The notes beneath the pieces are model-generated. The model worked only from the letters and a program-made list of their open reading frames with translations. It searched no databases and was not told the DNA's origin. Both the position numbers and the translations under genes were made by a program. DNA of 64,000 nt from Prevotella sp. (GTDB lineage: Bacteria; Bacteroidota; Bacteroidia; Bacteroidales; Bacteroidaceae), in NCBI GenBank assembly GCA_017417465.1, contig JAFPZD010000145.1, forward strand, positions 1-64,000, given 5' to 3'. Shown one piece after another: positions 22,638-58,004 of the stretch; position 1 is the stretch's first letter, and every line of letters starts with the position of its first letter.

Positions 22638-22645
22638 TAACTTTG
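22638..22645 (+). promoter_or_regulatory. -7 element TAACTTTG for gltX
   Basis: TAACTTTG lies 27 bp upstream of the gltX ATG. Confidence 0.75.
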
Positions 22646-22672
22646 CAGCCGATTAACGAAAGACGAACCATT

Positions 22673-24277
22673 ATGGACGAAAGAAAAGTGCGGGTGCGCT
22701 TTGCACCCAGCCCCACGGGGCCTTTGCATATCGGTGGTGTTCGCACTGCCCTGTATAATTACCTGTTTGCACGTCAGAAGGGCGGCTCACTGGTGTTCCG
22801 TATCGAGGACACCGACTCTACGCGCTTCGTGCCTGGCGCCGAGGCTTACATCATCGAGGCCTTCAAGTGGCTGGGTATCAAGTTCGACGAGGGCGTCAGC
22901 TTCGGCGGTGAGTATGGCCCGTATCGGCAGAGCGAGCGTCGCGACATCTACAAGCAGTATGTCGACCAGCTGTTGGCCAACGGCAAGGCATACATCGCCT
23001 TCGACACCCCAGCGGAGTTAGAGGCCAAACGTGCTGAGATACAGAACTTCCAGTATGACAACCGGACACGCGGCATGATGCGCAACTCGCTGACGATGCC
23101 GAAGGAAGAGGTCGACCAGCTGATTAGCGAGGGGCACCAGTACGTGGTGCGCTTTAAGATTGACGCCGGCGAGGAGGTGCTCGTCGACGACATGATCCGC
23201 GGCGAGGTGCATGTAAAGAGCGACACGCTCGACGATAAAGTGCTCTACAAGAGTGCCGACCAGCTGCCAACGTACCACCTGGCGAACATCGTCGACGACC
23301 ACCTGATGGAGATCACCCACGTCATTCGTGGCGAGGAGTGGCTGCCCTCTGCCCCACTCCACGTGCTGCTCTACAAAGCCTTCGGCTGGCAGGACACGAT
23401 GCCACGCTTTGCCCATCTGCCGCTGCTGCTGAAGCCCGATGGCAAGGGCAAGCTGTCGAAGCGTGACGGCGACCGTCTGGGCTTCCCTGTGTTCCCACTC
23501 GACTGGAAGGACGAGTCTGGCAATGTGACGGCCACGGGCTACCGCGAGCAGGGCTACTTCCCCGAGGCTGTGGTGAACTTTTTGGCACTGCTCGGCTGGA
23601 ACCCTGGCGGCGAGCAGGAGCTCTTTACACTCGACGAGCTGGTGCCGCTGTTCGACATCACAAAGTGTTCGAAGGCTGGTGCGAAGTTCGCCTACGAGAA
23701 GGGCATCTGGTTCAATCATGAGTATATCCTGCGTAAGAGCGCCGAGGAGATTGCACGCCTGTGGGAACCCGAAGTCCGCGCCCATGGTGTGACCGACTCG
23801 TTCGAGCGCATCGTGCAGGTCTGTGCCATGATGAAGGACCGCGTCTCGTTTGTCAAGGAGCTGTGGCCGCTGTGCTCGTTCTTCTTCGAGGCACCAACAA
23901 GCTACGACGAGAAGACGGCGAAAAAGAGATGGATAAAAGCCTCCCTTTCGTCCCCCGAGGGGGAAACAAAAGCCTCCCTTTCGTCCCCCGAGGGGGAAAC
24001 AATAGAATCTGCGCCGAAATACTCAGGGTCAAAAGAGACGTTGCTGGCACTTTGTGAAGTGCTCGAGGGGCTTGATGACTTCTCACTAGAAAATCAAGAG
24101 CACGTAGTACATGCCTGGATAGAAGACAACGGTCTGAAGATGGGGCATGTGATGAATGCCTGGCGCCTGGCACTCGTCGGAGAGGGAAAAGGCCCCGGCA
24201 TGTTCGACATCTCCGCATTTCTCGGCAAGGAGGAAACTATTCGGAGAACGAAGCGGGCTATTGAAACGTTGGGATAA
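22673..24277 (+). CDS. gltX: Glutamate-tRNA ligase with in-frame repeat insert
   Basis: GltX charges tRNA-Glu in the cytoplasm. ATG 22673 is chosen since [19 protein letters not shown] is the class I start and the promoter ends just upstream. The HIGH-type motif is PLHIGGVR and the KMSKS-type motif is [11 protein letters not shown]. The protein is 534 aa, some 25-30 longer than usual for the group. The surplus is a perfect tandem pair of 33-bp units at 23935-24000, encoding [11 protein letters not shown] twice. It falls near residues 422-443, between the catalytic body and the anticodon-binding helical domain. The rest of the gene is intact, so the enzyme is likely functional. Confidence 0.95.
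23935..24000. repeat. Two exact 33-bp units inside gltX
   Basis: Units 23935-23967 and 23968-24000 are identical and 11 codons long. Each contains the palindrome CCCCCGAGGGGG. Read on the minus strand they resemble the elements at 24302-24336 and 25222-25255. Confidence 0.95.
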
Positions 24278-26008: not shown

Positions 26009-26103
26009 CCAACGGACGGACCATCCCAATTGGTGGTTTGCCCGAAAGAGTTCTTTTAGTTCCTTCTATAGGAGAGACTTCTCCTATTGTCTCCTCTGTA
26101 CGA

Positions 26104-26199
26104 GAGACCTGCCTTAACCCCTTCCGTAGTAGAGACCTCTCCTAACCCCTCCCGTAGTAGAGACCTCTCCTAACCCCTCCCGTAGTAGAGACCTCCCCT
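26104..26199. repeat. 28-bp tandem repeat
   Basis: Units of the form CCTAACCCCTCCCGTAGTAG + AGACCTCT recur three to four times and run directly into the hairpin element at 26187-26288. No gene was found in 26009-26329 on either strand. Confidence 0.85.
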
Positions 26200-26288
26200 A
26201 ACCCCTCCTGTAGGAGGGGGATAAGATAGACCTGCTGCGGAAAAGGTAACTTATCCCCCTCCTACAGGAGGGGTTAGGGGAGGTCTCT
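26187..26288. repeat. 102-bp hairpin element, copy 1
   Basis: Arms 26187-26225 and 26250-26288 are 39 bp each and exactly complementary. The 24-bp loop starts ATAGACCTGCTGCGG. A second copy with the loop inverted is at 33049-33150. Confidence 0.95.
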
Positions 26289-26329: not shown

Positions 26330-26479
26330 TCAACTGACGGAGTCAGCCTCTTCCTCGTAGGGTGGCGGACCATAGACATCCTCGATTTCCTGATTACTGT
26401 GCTTACAAGAACCGAGGGTGAACAGTGAGATGAGCGCCGCCAGAACAGCGTTGGTAAGCAAAAAGAAACGTTTCCGCAT
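26330..26479 (-). CDS. Small lipoprotein with VYGPPP core, second precursor (49 aa)
   Basis: A candidate substrate of the adjacent radical-SAM enzyme; function unknown. The frame starts at ATG (complement of 26477-26479) and ends at TGA (26330-26332). The signal is MRKRFFLLTNAVLAALISLF with lipobox TLGSC (Cys25). The mature part is only about 25 residues: CKHSNQEIEDVYGPPPYEEE then ADSVS. The signal and the VYGPPP core are clearly homologous to those of the upstream lipoprotein. It begins 15 bp after that gene ends. It is well below the usual size cut-off of gene callers. Confidence 0.75.
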   Translation of the reverse strand: MRKRFFLLTNAVLAALISLFTLGSCKHSNQEIEDVYGPPPYEEEADSVS

Positions 26480-26494
26480 TGGCAAGGACTCTTA

Positions 26495-26782
26495 TTACTT
26501 TGTTTCCCGATGGACGGCAGGCGGTCCACCATAGACCGTCTTGAATCTCTCAGCCTCACGCTTCCGACGCTCTTGCTCGATGCGCTGGCGTTCCTCCTCC
26601 TGCCGTTGGAATTCCTGTCTTTCAAGCTCCGCCTGACGGGCAGCCTCCAGCTCTTGCTCGTAGCCGGGAGGCGGTCCGTAGACTGTCTCTACCTCCTTGT
26701 GGCACCTACAGTTGGTGAATCCCAGGAGCGTAATCATCGAACCGATGAACAGGTTCGAGATGTTGAAAAAACGTTTTTTCAT
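26495..26782 (-). CDS. Small lipoprotein with two YGPP motifs and a charged helix (95 aa)
   Basis: A candidate substrate or partner of the radical-SAM enzyme upstream. The signal MKKRFFNISNLFIGSMITLL has lipobox LGFTNC (Cys25). The mature protein has KEVETVYGPPPGYEQE, then a highly charged helical segment of about 37 residues (Glu/Arg/Gln-rich, 'RQEEERQRIEQERRKREAER'), and then a second motif FKTVYGGPPAVH. The layout is motif-helix-motif. It starts 4 bp after the radical-SAM stop. I recall 'rSAM/lipoprotein' systems in Bacteroidota with a conserved YG motif (TIGR04133/TIGR04134); membership should be tested. Confidence 0.75.
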   Translation of the reverse strand: MKKRFFNISNLFIGSMITLLGFTNCRCHKEVETVYGPPPGYEQELEAARQAELERQEFQRQEEERQRIEQERRKREAERFKTVYGGPPAVHRETK

Positions 26783-26786
26783 AAGC

Positions 26787-27923
26787 TTATTCAGTGATAA
26801 TACGTTTCAAGTGACAATGCATCAGACGACCCTGATCGTCGCGCAGGTGGAGGCCGTTGCCCTCACAGTAGCGCCAGTAGCGGCAGTCGGCACAGTCGCC
26901 GGTGCGCATCCAGCTGTGGTCACGGTGCTGTTGGTAACGGTTTTCCCAAACGTCCATGAAGTCGTCGTCGTAGATATTACCCTGCGAGTAGTCGGCACGC
27001 ACACTGGTGCAAGCCCCAATGGAGCCATCGATGAGCACGCCACCGACGGTGACGCCGGCAGCACAGCGGAACATCCAGTCGCGCACGTCACCCTCATAGT
27101 CGGCCACGAAACCCTCACAGCTGTAGCAGGCACGGATACGCCCCTCACGGCGTGTCTGGCGGATGAACGACAGCAGGCCACGGTACTGGGCATTACTGAG
27201 CTGCAGCAATGGCTCCTTGGCGGCCCGCCCAACAGGAAAGATGGGGAACAGACGCCAGGCTGTGACGCCACGACTGATAAGGAAGTCGCGAATCTGCGGT
27301 AGTTGGTCGTAGTTACGCTGGTTGACACAGGTCACCACGTCGTAGATGACACGTGGCTCACGCACCAACAGGTCGATAGCCGCACAGGCACGTTCAAAGC
27401 TCTGCGGATGGCAGCGCAGCCAGTTATGGTCGGCCTCCATGCCGTCGAGGCTGAGGGCCACAGAGCCGAGACCAGCATCGACAAGGGCGTTGAAACGGTC
27501 TGTCGTCAGGTAAAGACCGTTGGTGACCATGCCCCAAGGGAAGCCGCGGCGGTTGAACTCCTTGCCACAAAGCTCCAAGTCGTCACGCATCAGCGGTTCG
27601 CCACCACTCACAATGATGAACACCTTGTGAGGGTCGCAACGACGGGCGACGCTGTCGAGCACTCGGAAGAAATCCTCACGCGGCATGTCGGGTGTCTGTG
27701 CCACCTGCTTACAGTCGCTGCCACAGTGGCGGCAATGCACGTTGCAGCGCAGCGTAGACTCCCAGAATAGTTGGCGCAAGGGGTGCTCGCGCTTCAGGTT
27801 ACGGTTCAGCTGCCGCGCCAGCTCCAATGCTACACGCCGACGCAACGACAGCCGCCCATCGTGGGCCGCCTCGGGTGCAATGCCGCCGCCATAGCGCTGC
27901 GGTTCTGTTTTGTTCGTATCCAT
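26787..27923 (-). CDS. Radical SAM/SPASM protein linked to small lipoproteins
   Basis: A radical-SAM enzyme likely to modify the two small lipoproteins encoded next to it. The 4Fe-4S motif is CNVHCRHC in STLRCNVHCRHCGSDC. Radical-SAM landmarks follow (VSGGEPLMRDDLE, GMVTNGLYL, VALSLDGMEADHNWLR). The C-terminal SPASM region has several cysteines for auxiliary clusters (YSCEG, RCAAGVTVGG, GACTSVRADYSQGNI, CADCRYWRYCEG). It matches, as far as I can judge, the Bacteroidota rSAM/lipoprotein family. The frame is open from 27974, but the Met at 27923 fits better. A -7-like TATCTTTG (27932-27939) would leave almost no leader, so promoter or start may be misplaced. It heads an operon of three genes with gaps of 4 and 15 bp. 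Confidence 0.88.
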   Translation of the reverse strand: MDTNKTEPQRYGGGIAPEAAHDGRLSLRRRVALELARQLNRNLKREHPLRQLFWESTLRCNVHCRHCGSDCKQVAQTPDMPREDFFRVLDSVARRCDPHKVFIIVSGGEPLMRDDLELCGKEFNRRGFPWGMVTNGLYLTTDRFNALVDAGLGSVALSLDGMEADHNWLRCHPQSFERACAAIDLLVREPRVIYDVVTCVNQRNYDQLPQIRDFLISRGVTAWRLFPIFPVGRAAKEPLLQLSNAQYRGLLSFIRQTRREGRIRACYSCEGFVADYEGDVRDWMFRCAAGVTVGGVLIDGSIGACTSVRADYSQGNIYDDDFMDVWENRYQQHRDHSWMRTGDCADCRYWRYCEGNGLHLRDDQGRLMHCHLKRIITE

Positions 27924-30422: not shown

Positions 30423-30806
30423 ATGCAACAAAAGACACTTACCAAAGGCGAGATACAGGTGATGAACATCCTGTGGGACATGCAGCGGGGAGCCTGCGTG
30501 GCCGACATTCAAAAGCGGTTTCCTGAGCCGCCGCCAGCCTACACTACCATTGCCACGTTCCTGAAGATCATGGAGCAGAAGGGCTTCGTGGAGAAGCGCA
30601 AGAGCGGCAGCGGCAAGACCTTCGTCTACTCGCCGCTCCTGACCCGCGAGCGTTACCGCCGCATGGTGATGGACGACGTGAAGGACACGTTCTTCGGCGG
30701 GTCGGCGAAGTCGCTCGTCTCCTTCTTTGCCGAGGAGGACGAACTGTCGCAGGACGACATCAACGAAATACTGACAATGCTAAAGAACCGTAGCCATGCT
30801 GACTGA
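30423..30806 (+). CDS. BlaI/MecI family repressor
   Basis: A winged-helix repressor cleaved or released through the M56 sensor encoded next to it. The 127-aa protein has LTKGEIQVMNILWDM, the recognition region PPPAYTTIATFLKIMEQKGFV and the wing EKRKSGSGKTFVYSPL; the C-terminal helices serve dimerisation. It overlaps the sensor gene by 11 bp, the normal operon layout. No beta-lactamase gene is near, so the regulon is likely envelope stress or another system, as commonly seen in Bacteroidota. Confidence 0.92.
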   Translation: MQQKTLTKGEIQVMNILWDMQRGACVADIQKRFPEPPPAYTTIATFLKIMEQKGFVEKRKSGSGKTFVYSPLLTRERYRRMVMDDVKDTFFGGSAKSLVSFFAEEDELSQDDINEILTMLKNRSHAD

Positions 30807-32793
30807 CCTGGTATACTACGACCTGAAGGTGGCGGCGCTGATAGCCGTGTTCTACCTCTTCTATAGGCTACTGTTGGCACGCGAGACCACGCACAGCCTG
30901 AACCGCGCCGTGCTGCTTTTGGGCATTGTCCTTTCTGCAGTATTGCCAATGTGTATCATTACCATCCATAAAGCCGCACCGACAATCCCTCTCGCAGGTA
31001 GGGGGGACTGGTTACTGTTACCATCGGCGCCTCCAGCTGAAGGACTTTCCACCCCACTCTCCTTGGGAGAGGGGCTGGAGACGAGGCTTTTGGGAGAGGG
31101 GCTGGGGGTGAGACTCCTTGCCGTCATTCTCTTGACGGGCATCATCATCCGGCTGCTGTATTTTGCCAAGGGCATCTGGAGGCTGAACAGGATGATTCGT
31201 GGTGGCGAAAGACACACGCTGCCATCGGGCACCCATGTTTGCGTGGTCGATGCCCCAATAGCCCCGTTCTCATGGATGCGAACCATCGTACTATCGTCAG
31301 CCGACTGGTACTTGTCTCTGTCGGAGGGGTCGAGTGAGGCGCCTATCCTTGCCCACGAAGAGGCGCACGTGCGCCATCGTCATAGCTACGACGTTGTGGT
31401 CGTAGAATTACTCACGGCTCTGCAATGGTTCAATCCCGTGGTGTGGTTCCTGCGCCAGGAACTACGCATCCTCCACGAGTATGAGGCCGACGCATCCGTC
31501 CTCTCACACGGCTTCAACGAAAGCCAGTACATTCATCTTCTGATGCAAAAGGCGACGGGCATTCAGGCCTGTGCCCTCGCCAATGGCATCCACACACAAA
31601 AAACAAAAAAACGAATTCTTATGATGCTCAAAACAAAATCGAAGCGCACGGCATGGCTCAAAGCCCTGTACATCGTGCCCATAGCCATCGTCTCGTTGGC
31701 TATGACCACCAGAACCGTTATCGACTATGAGGCCTCCACACCAGAAGACAGCCTCGCCGTGCGCGTGTTCAATGAGAAAACCAATAGCCGAGGTGACAGC
31801 TACCAAATACGCTATACACCCGGCGTGAAGTTCTACAACAATGGTAAAGAGGAGGACATTCCCGGCGACCGCCCCTTAGCACTCGCAGTGGAGAAAACGA
31901 CCATGCAGCTCGACGGCGTGAAGTTCGACGAGCACTCACTCCCCAACCTGCCTGCTACTGCCCTGCGCGAAATCCACGTGAACCAGACTGGCACAGACCA
32001 CTTCGTCTGCAATCTTGTGACGACAGAACGCGTGAAGTACAGCCCGACGATGAGCGACGCGGCATTTGTCAATTACGTGAATCAGTATCAGGCAGCAGGC
32101 ATAGATGAGGATGCCCTTGGCCAGATCATGCTTAATGAGGGTGGCAGTATAAGCCGCGCCCACATGCTCCATATCATTCGTGCCTATGGCAGCAATAAGA
32201 ACAAGTTCCTTGTCGTCGATGGAAAAGAGGTTTCACGCGAGACGTTTAACCAGCTAAAGTCTGAAGACATTGCTTCGGTAACTGTGATGGACGTCGGTCC
32301 CGCTAAGGAAGTGTTCGGCGAGAAAGGCCAATATGGAGCCACGGTCGTTGAGACGAAACAGACGTCATCCGACGTTCAGCAAAAAGACGACGACAGAGTA
32401 TTTGAAGTTGTGGAATTGATGCCCAGCTTCCCCGGCGGCGAAGCGAAGCTGATGGAGTTCATCGCCCGTAACATCAAGTACCCCAAACAGGCGCAAGACT
32501 ACGGTGTGCAGGGCCGTGTGATGGTGCGGTTCATCGTCGAGAAGGATGGTCGTCTGACAAACGCCGAAGTATTGGAGATGCCTCGTGCGTCGGGCACCAG
32601 CATGGTGGTGGTCACGGCGACGATGAACGAGAAGCAACGCCAGGATGCCGAAGGGCACAATGCCGGCGTACAGGCCCTGCACGACGAGGCGCAACGCGTG
32701 ATTGCGGCCATGCCCCAGTGGTCACCCGGCAAGCAGCGTGGCAAAGCTGTGCGGTGCAGGTACACCATCCCCGTCACCTTCAGGCTGAACTAA
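30796..32793 (+). CDS. M56 (BlaR1-type) peptidase fused to a TonB C-terminal domain
   Basis: A membrane sensor protease paired with the BlaI-type repressor. N-terminal helices (LKVAALIAVFYLFYRLLLA; LLLGIVLSAVLPMCI) lead to the zinc protease motif HEEAHVRHRHSYD near residue 186. A further helix near 300 (IVPIAIVSLAMTT) exposes a periplasmic region with a plug-like stretch (VDGKEVSRETFNQL, GPAKEVFGEKGQYGATVVETK). The end is a TonB C-terminal domain (NIKYPKQAQDYGVQGRVMV ... WSPGKQRG). Residues about 65-107 (IPLAGRGDWLLLPSAPPAEG, then STPLSLGEGLETRLLGEGLG) are repeat-derived and lie in the loop before the third helix. It is 665 aa. Confidence 0.9.
   Translation: MLTDLVYYDLKVAALIAVFYLFYRLLLARETTHSLNRAVLLLGIVLSAVLPMCIITIHKAAPTIPLAGRGDWLLLPSAPPAEGLSTPLSLGEGLETRLLGEGLGVRLLAVILLTGIIIRLLYFAKGIWRLNRMIRGGERHTLPSGTHVCVVDAPIAPFSWMRTIVLSSADWYLSLSEGSSEAPILAHEEAHVRHRHSYDVVVVELLTALQWFNPVVWFLRQELRILHEYEADASVLSHGFNESQYIHLLMQKATGIQACALANGIHTQKTKKRILMMLKTKSKRTAWLKALYIVPIAIVSLAMTTRTVIDYEASTPEDSLAVRVFNEKTNSRGDSYQIRYTPGVKFYNNGKEEDIPGDRPLALAVEKTTMQLDGVKFDEHSLPNLPATALREIHVNQTGTDHFVCNLVTTERVKYSPTMSDAAFVNYVNQYQAAGIDEDALGQIMLNEGGSISRAHMLHIIRAYGSNKNKFLVVDGKEVSRETFNQLKSEDIASVTVMDVGPAKEVFGEKGQYGATVVETKQTSSDVQQKDDDRVFEVVELMPSFPGGEAKLMEFIARNIKYPKQAQDYGVQGRVMVRFIVEKDGRLTNAEVLEMPRASGTSMVVVTATMNEKQRQDAEGHNAGVQALHDEAQRVIAAMPQWSPGKQRGKAVRCRYTIPVTFRLN
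31053..31119. repeat. 'GGGAGAGGGGCTGGGGGTGA' elements inside the M56 gene
   Basis: Two adjacent copies (about 31053-31089 and 31089-31119) of the element that also occurs between gltB and gltD and inside gltB. They are read in frame here. Confidence 0.85.
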
Positions 32794-33048: not shown

Positions 33049-33150
33049 AGAGACCTCCCCTAACCCCTCCTGTAGGAGGGGGATAAGTTACCTTATCCGC
33101 TGCAGGTCTATCTTATCCCCCTCCTACAGGAGGGGTTAGGGGAGGTCTCT
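33049..33150. repeat. 102-bp hairpin element, copy 2
   Basis: Arms 33049-33087 and 33112-33150 equal those of copy 1 (26187-26288). The 24-bp loop is the reverse complement of the copy 1 loop with two differences. Confidence 0.95.
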
Positions 33151-57925: not shown

Positions 57926-58004
57926 TATATACTCCCCTCTCCCCTTGGAGAGGGGCTGGGGGTGAGGCTTCTTCAGCGGGAGAGGGGCTGGGGGTGAGGC
58001 TTCT
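57926..58004. repeat. Two palindromic elements between gltB and gltD
   Basis: CTCCCCTCTCCCCTTGGAGAGGGG with GCTGGGGGTGAGGCTTCTT, then a second GAGAGGGGCTGGGGGTGAGG, end at the gltB stop codon. Confidence 0.9.

Follow-up and report, generated by a model that had tools for sequence, protein, structure and literature searches.

The splicease PlpXY acts at an X-Tyr-Gly (XYG) site, naturally MYG and LYG (PMC10533398), with PlpX working together with PlpY, a protein of the recognition-element (RRE) type known from ribosomally synthesized and post-translationally modified peptides (RiPPs) (PMC11002830). Several sites per precursor are possible and the leader is dispensable (PMC10533398, PMC11002830, PMC10373908). 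DAG-RiPPs, for example DybA/DybH, are hybrids of RiPP and lipoprotein that MNIO enzymes modify; the maturase acts on a short precursor while it is still cytoplasmic, ahead of lipoprotein processing, and since its recognition motif is short, the rest of the precursor can vary (PMC12636315). NCBIfam already names TIGR04133/TIGR04134, a radical S-adenosylmethionine (SAM) protein and an associated putative lipoprotein, with no function given. In a literature search with most subscription papers outside its reach, we found no paper naming TIGR04133 or TIGR04134 and no YGPP in the 7 papers that mention Prevotella, lipoprotein and radical SAM together. In this study, we compared these systems with an operon encoding a radical SAM/SPASM enzyme and two small lipoproteins with XYG motifs, located in a 64,000-nucleotide stretch of Prevotella sp. 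DNA (contig JAFPZD010000145.1, positions 1 to 64,000), hereafter the window.

The enzyme very probably modifies the XYG site of these lipoproteins, judging from comparison of sequences across loci. This reading fits best because of the linkage of such lipoproteins to the enzyme, their co-occurrence across genomes, the unlinked candidates and the reuse of the motif on unlike proteins. As a whole, we hold the following to be the best explanation, and somewhat probable: the radical SAM/SPASM enzyme would be a cytoplasmic maturase, its substrates lipoprotein precursors with an XYG site, and it would act at this site ahead of Sec export. Next, the modified short protein would be processed by signal peptidase II, lipidated and thereby tethered to the membrane. 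DAG-RiPPs show that lipoprotein precursors can be modified ahead of export by a maturase that recognizes a short motif (PMC12636315). The reaction would most likely be tyramine excision (loss of C8H9NO, ~135.07 Da), leaving an alpha-ketoamide. Because of the motif and the moderate kinship of the enzymes, this is our best single guess for the chemistry, with about an even chance of being right.

The operon comprises the following features:
26787..27923, minus strand: radical SAM/SPASM enzyme, 378 amino acids (aa), ATG start, identified by TIGR04133 and Pfam
27746-27723, minus strand: CxxxCxxC of the enzyme (C60/C64/C67)
Residues 269, 287, 305, 344, 347, 353 and 370 of the enzyme: SPASM-region cysteines
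26783-26786: intergenic gap of 4 bp between the enzyme gene and the 95-aa gene
26495..26782, minus strand: 95-aa lipoprotein with two motifs, candidate substrate, from translation
26666..26683, minus strand: first VYGPPP of the 95-aa lipoprotein, residues 34-39, from the sequence; XYG conserved across loci
26519..26536, minus strand: second motif, VYGGPP, of the 95-aa lipoprotein, residues 83-88, from the sequence
26480-26494: intergenic gap of 15 bp between the 95-aa and 49-aa genes
26330..26479, minus strand: 49-aa minimal lipoprotein, candidate substrate, from translation
26360..26377, minus strand: VYGPPP of the 49-aa lipoprotein, residues 35-40, from the sequence

Coordinates and translations agree with the three-gene operon of the original prediction, in which the enzyme is followed by the 95-aa and 49-aa lipoproteins across these gaps. 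Judged from sequence, both lipoproteins have an N-terminus that is basic, a hydrophobic segment and a Cys25 whose surroundings resemble a lipobox, and VYG occurs three times in total across the two. In the 95-aa protein, the signal peptide extends to C25, the mature region is ~71 aa, and a charged helix-like stretch separates the two motifs. VYGPPP in both proteins and the VYGGPP copy after the charged stretch are present as described. The mature 49-aa protein is ~25 aa long, counted from C25.

Linkage between the enzyme and XYG lipoproteins was far above chance. The comparison drew on 187 loci, gathered from the genome searches described below, from 76 contig loci and from 54 fetched stretches; 186 of the 187 had an enzyme match (L002 was dropped). 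After 97% identity filtering 173 loci were non-redundant, and six of them (L128-L133, TIGR04103-like, from a TIGR04103 search) were set apart, leaving 167. Lipobox open reading frames (ORFs) within 1.3 kb of the 167 homologous enzymes contained YGP or YGxP in 164 of 274 cases, versus 4 of 337 in the remaining parts of these loci (Fisher's test, P ~1e-67); both ORF sets were called mechanically, false ORFs included, and the motif was picked after a first look. By script, 140 of the 167 loci had a signal-bearing ORF with YGP or YGxP within 1.3 kb of the enzyme. Script and inspection by eye together gave a linked XYG protein, nearly always with a signal peptide, in 149. The difference reflects removal of L080 (wrong ORF) and addition by eye of ten loci whose XYG is looser or that the filter had passed over (L016, L051, L074, L083, L089, L098, L149, L150, L166, whose signal region is cut off by the locus edge, and L173). 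The value of 149/167 thus leans on by-eye work after the motif choice, whereas the scripted contrast does not. An initial pattern, YG.P, overlooked YGPRP and forms next to the Cys, and a broader one replaced it. Wrong automatic matches were 294-aa FKBP-like proteins and a 302-aa protein of L160, each beside true ones, a 241-aa protein in L080 and a 213-aa protein in L171, where a true ACYGTP form is present; only L080 altered the locus count.

The neighbourhood survey proposed in the original prediction yielded a linked XYG protein at 149 loci, but enzymes without a visible linked partner also exist (18/167), so that the situation which the original prediction named as refuting it does occur. 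Among the 18, five (L022, L024, L026, L033, L042) had an unlinked XYG lipoprotein elsewhere in the genome, four (L023, L097, L123, L181) were cut on one side by the sequence end, and L136 came from a genome whose second enzyme has a linked partner (L116). L187 had a KYGAPP/KYGSP protein ~2.4 kb away.

Residues around YG were counted in 193 linked lipobox ORFs, a few unrelated neighbours included. The X residue was Glu in 37, Val in 35, Leu in 33, Cys in 27, Met in 22, and Ala and Lys in 14 each. Position +2 was Pro in 56, Thr in 52, Val in 24, Ser in 15, Gly in 13 and Ala in 12, and position +3 was Pro in 138. X-Tyr-Gly is what stays constant, Pro usually following at +2 or +3, so the core is XYG, not YGPP. 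Of the Tyr-Gly-Pro-Pro core suggested earlier, Tyr-Gly stood and the fixed Pro-Pro did not; the occurrence of YGPRP, YGTP, YGGP, YGVR and other forms led to rejection of YGPP as the one conserved core. Likewise, the earlier idea of a modified, membrane-anchored lipoprotein system is retained with Tyr-Gly as the likely target, according to the cross-locus comparison, and without the full YGPP core.

The same counts bear on a different chemistry for the same enzyme and substrates, namely a cross-link of Tyr to a nearby residue or a residue-keeping radical change at Tyr or Gly. SPASM enzymes form many bonds of the cross-link type, the cross-linking reading is favoured by SuiB, CteB, SkfB and ChlB among the top fold matches, and the common Pro at +3 is not required by XYG splicing as described. 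Yet Tyr-Gly is the only constant pair, with position +2 ranging from Gly (13/193) to Pro (56/193), and XYG is the site of a known splicease. We regard such tyrosine chemistry as a possible but rather unlikely account. One version was rejected as a general product: a three-residue cyclophane onto the beta carbon at +2 cannot be general, since +2 is Gly in 13 of 193 ORFs.

The candidate substrates have little in common beyond the motif. In an alignment of 12 chosen short homologues (A2), the invariant columns were Met1, the lipobox Cys and YGPPP, with little else shared; YGPPP invariance is by construction, because the rows were chosen to carry it, but the scarcity of other shared columns is not. 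Partner types included minimal, double-motif, coiled-coil-like (by eye), TonB_C-fused and Ig-like proteins, with unlike mature parts and XYG kept. Among 163 linked candidate ORFs, 123 had one motif copy, 38 had two and two had three, and the shortest mature parts in linked ORFs were 22, 23, 25 and 28 aa. The double-motif and minimal forms highlighted in the original prediction are thus recurrent, not unique to the window, whose pair is one of several such forms. A Gly-hydrophobic step before the lipobox was found in 110 of 164 linked signal peptides versus 30 of 337 controls; it may help recognition or reflect common descent. TonB_C-like tails were seen on XYG lipoproteins of L028, L029, L265 and L268, one L028 protein passing the Pfam cut-off and the others recognized by eye.

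Genome-wide searches extended the association. TIGR04133 was found in 16 of 60 same-genus genomes (E<=1e-80), in 69 of 295 same-order genomes (E<=1e-60; 61 over cut-off) and in 2 of 296 phylum-wide genomes (E<=1e-60), the window's own genome being counted each time. TIGR04134 exceeded its cut-off in 39 of the 295 same-order genomes, and 38 of these also have TIGR04133. Nineteen TIGR04134-match stretches lay away from the listed enzyme matches: 14 in enzyme-positive genomes, 2 in G579 and 3 in genomes whose enzyme score did not exceed the cut-off. XYG was kept in 12 of the 14; one of the 12, L204, proved to be linked after all, its neighbour being a fragment of the enzyme where the contig ends (G376). 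L200 had no clear site. The TIGR04134-like stretches L202, L205 and L206, from genomes without an enzyme over cut-off, lack XYG.

Model A2, which suits Prevotella-type forms only, had matches at E<=1e-4 in 8 of the 60 same-genus genomes, all among the 16 enzyme-positive ones. Four of these (G000, G028, G041, G044) supplied A2 rows or hold near-copies; the four independent genomes all fell within the 12 enzyme-positive genomes of 56 (P ~0.001). Where the enzyme is missing, A2 matches were weaker and lay mainly over the signal region, and six of them, opened on one strand, revealed no YGP/YGxP lipoprotein. Eleven genomes whose enzyme has no linked partner were searched, and unlinked XYG lipoproteins were detected in five, namely in all those labelled Prevotella or Prevotellaceae. 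Four of them (G647-G650, the genomes of L022, L042, L024 and L026) contributed no rows to A2, and each had a match elsewhere in the genome, with E values of 4e-10 to 1e-19. The G647 match is 227 aa long, has two motifs and ends in a TonB_C-like tail; its gene is flanked by one resembling periplasmic adaptors and one resembling sugar kinases. The G648 match (208 aa) contains VYGPPV, and those of G649 and G650, both 101 aa, have two and three motifs, respectively. The genome of L033, one of seven more searched, had an unlinked lipoprotein with VVYGPRP. The comparison shows that candidate substrates may be unlinked to the enzyme gene.

This distribution also concerns the view that XYG is a binding or sorting element and that the target of the enzyme lies elsewhere, in the lipoproteins or in the cell. 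The motif often adjoins the lipidated Cys, as in ACYGTP forms, where sorting signals lie, and Tyr-Ala variants exist. However, its position ranges from Cys+1 to near the C-terminus, it is repeated two or three times, it tracks the enzyme across genomes with one exception, and the short mature proteins share little else. We therefore judge this explanation improbable.

The enzyme was readily assigned. Its TIGR04133 score of 559.4 bits was clearly over the cut-off of 425 (residues 27-375 over model positions 1-349 of 350), bearing out the family named in the original prediction, and Pfam found Radical_SAM and SPASM. An AlphaFold2 model (mean predicted local distance difference test score, pLDDT, 85.6) had one helix before the radical SAM core. 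In the fold comparison, the top 12 rows were peptide or protein maturases, including those named above. A PDB sequence search gave only distant radical SAM relatives; the PDB lists shown contain no PlpX-type enzyme, which excludes nothing. In a limited tree, TIGR04133 and TIGR04103-like enzymes grouped with support of 97/95, and XYG was present in neighbours of three of the six TIGR04103-like enzymes. TIGR04133-type enzymes also occur on contigs labelled Fibrobacter (L088, L089), together with Ser-rich proteins with LYGCP and, in L088, repeated KYGV; this is either spread beyond Bacteroidota or mis-binned contigs.

Several observations weigh against maturation and splicing at XYG. The enzyme scores 102.7 bits against TIGR04103, which we take to be IPR026482 (PlpX), far under the cut-off of 725. 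Its best cross-family hidden Markov model scores were to NirJ2 (119 bits), TIGR04053 (117) and AhbD (114), NirJ too being slightly above the TIGR04103 value, and the tree did not deliberately sample these four. No conserved counterpart of the RRE protein PlpY was seen among clustered neighbours of at least 70 aa, a comparison made without shorter ORFs and without an RRE profile. Glu, Lys and Cys are frequent at X in the loci compared here. Only two of 16 listed rows of PlpXY tags in FtsZ were accepted, neither LYGLPI row among them, so the context around XYG matters (PMC10533398). Linked Tyr-Ala forms stand in place of XYG in L080 (LLYAVP) and L187 (CYAPAP), and such variants, including CYAPPP in the window's own genome, are left unexplained by XYG modification. 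At L095, L126, L156 and the divergent L184-L186, uncut flanks of at least 1.4 kb gave no XYG lipoprotein. Finally, G579 (300 contigs, 94% complete) has two XYG lipoproteins with no enzyme at E<=1e-20, and L189, from an enzyme-positive genome, lacks the motif.

Concerning these loci, an A2 search of the L095, L126, L156 and L184-L186 genomes gave weak matches and no XYG lipoprotein as far as read; the L184-L186 enzymes are 33-36% identical to the window enzyme and, with 223-247 bits, under the TIGR04133 cut-off. The CYAPPP protein is a 78-aa lipoprotein (G000:C10:85461-85694; L274, L284) on the same contig, 21 kb beyond the window, and its relatives in three other enzyme-positive genomes read CYGPxP.

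The cross-family scores are what favours a small-molecule substrate, such as the tetrapyrroles of NirJ/AhbD, with the lipoproteins as carriers. Among neighbour clusters of at least 70 aa in the 167 loci, the two largest were lipoproteins, in 77 and 54 loci, and the next was in only 17; no other widely conserved neighbour of this size was found, smaller ones not being sought. Minimal lipoproteins of 22-25 aa leave scant room for a carrier fold, and the top fold matches were all maturases, in lists without structures of the heme families (NirJ2, TIGR04053, AhbD type). We consider a small-molecule substrate very improbable, and heme-type chemistry was set aside as unlikely on the basis of these neighbour clusters.

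Returning to maturation at XYG, we propose with some hesitation, at slightly less than an even chance, that tyramine is cut out at XYG of unlike lipoproteins, linked and unlinked, by a SPASM enzyme for which no RRE partner is evident, so that gut and rumen Bacteroidota display alpha-ketoamides. If so, reactive alpha-ketoamides on membrane-tethered peptides would represent backbone splicing dedicated to membrane lipoproteins, and in CYGTP forms, with XYG directly after the lipidated Cys, the anchor residue would become a beta-amino acid. What such products might do, perhaps trapping proteases as electrophiles or serving as a covalent anchor on the cell surface, is a matter of speculation. The comparison narrows the reaction of a family present in 69/295 same-order genomes to two residues, and the window lipoproteins are small enough for intact mass spectrometry. 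Confirmed splicing would extend protein splicing to ketoamides to membrane lipoproteins of gut and rumen bacteria, with the 49-aa form as a ready tool substrate. Scott et al. 2022 (Chem), which deals with beta-amino acids in ribosomal peptides and proteins and is cited in PMC11002830, PMC11117315, PMC10373908 and PMC10533398, may already include such enzymes.

Repeats were also noted in the window. A 39-bp inverted repeat lies just downstream of the 49-aa gene (26187-26225 and 26250-26288), with an identical copy 6.9 kb away (33049-33087 and 33112-33150); it is a dispersed palindromic element and possibly also a terminator. It adjoins a 28-bp tandem repeat in four copies (26103-26213). A perfect 33-bp tandem repeat (23935-24002) is in frame in a 544-aa ORF (22643-24277), giving an 11-residue unit twice. 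The 20-mer GGAGAGGGGCTGGGGGTGAG is repeated at 31093-31112, 57947-57966 and 57979-57998, the first copy being inside a 665-aa ORF (30796-32793), as if inserted in frame.

TIGR04133/TIGR04134 is among the closest known systems: the enzyme exceeds the TIGR04133 cut-off, two lipoprotein genes are adjacent, and both match TIGR04134 weakly. However, membership of TIGR04134, also named in the original prediction, did not hold, as the 95-aa and 49-aa lipoproteins scored 12.7 and 16.5 bits against a cut-off of 39.8, and the alignment covers no more than the signal and the first motif. Many TIGR04134-type partners have, by eye, an Ig/carboxypeptidase-regulatory-like part (one example matched Pfam under cut-offs); both window lipoproteins lack it, with no such Pfam match at E<=1 and no Pfam match of any kind over cut-off. 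Routine models can therefore miss such substrates.

The GDL-motif-peptide maturases (TIGR03913) resemble the system through a related SPASM enzyme, L128, which scores 526 bits against that family, has TIGR04133 as its third match and adjoins a 57-aa DUF1843 protein starting MATVLYG, another instance of XYG. It differs in that L128 is under the family cut-off (591.75) and its neighbours are small, with no evident signal peptide. Beside another TIGR04103-like enzyme (L132), in a genome of the same family as the window, a 214-aa ORF without a Pfam match has six C-terminal KYGYP repeats, five directly before Cys, and is likely a multi-site XYG substrate, as far as its sequence indicates.

The word lipoprotein is absent from PMC10352776 and PMC8326336, and passages of these two and of PMC9484694 and PMC10994174 have no bearing on the enzyme/lipoprotein pair. 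On the proposed reading, the system would resemble DAG-RiPPs in a short lipoprotein precursor recognized through a short motif, the putative signal and Cys25 being visible in the sequence; an MNIO iron enzyme and C-terminal CPACGMG there contrast with radical SAM/SPASM and XYG here. With PlpXY it shares a SPASM radical SAM enzyme and an X-Tyr-Gly site in the candidate substrate, while the window enzyme falls under the TIGR04103 cut-off and its putative substrates are signal-peptide lipoproteins in place of Nif11/nitrile-hydratase-leader peptides.

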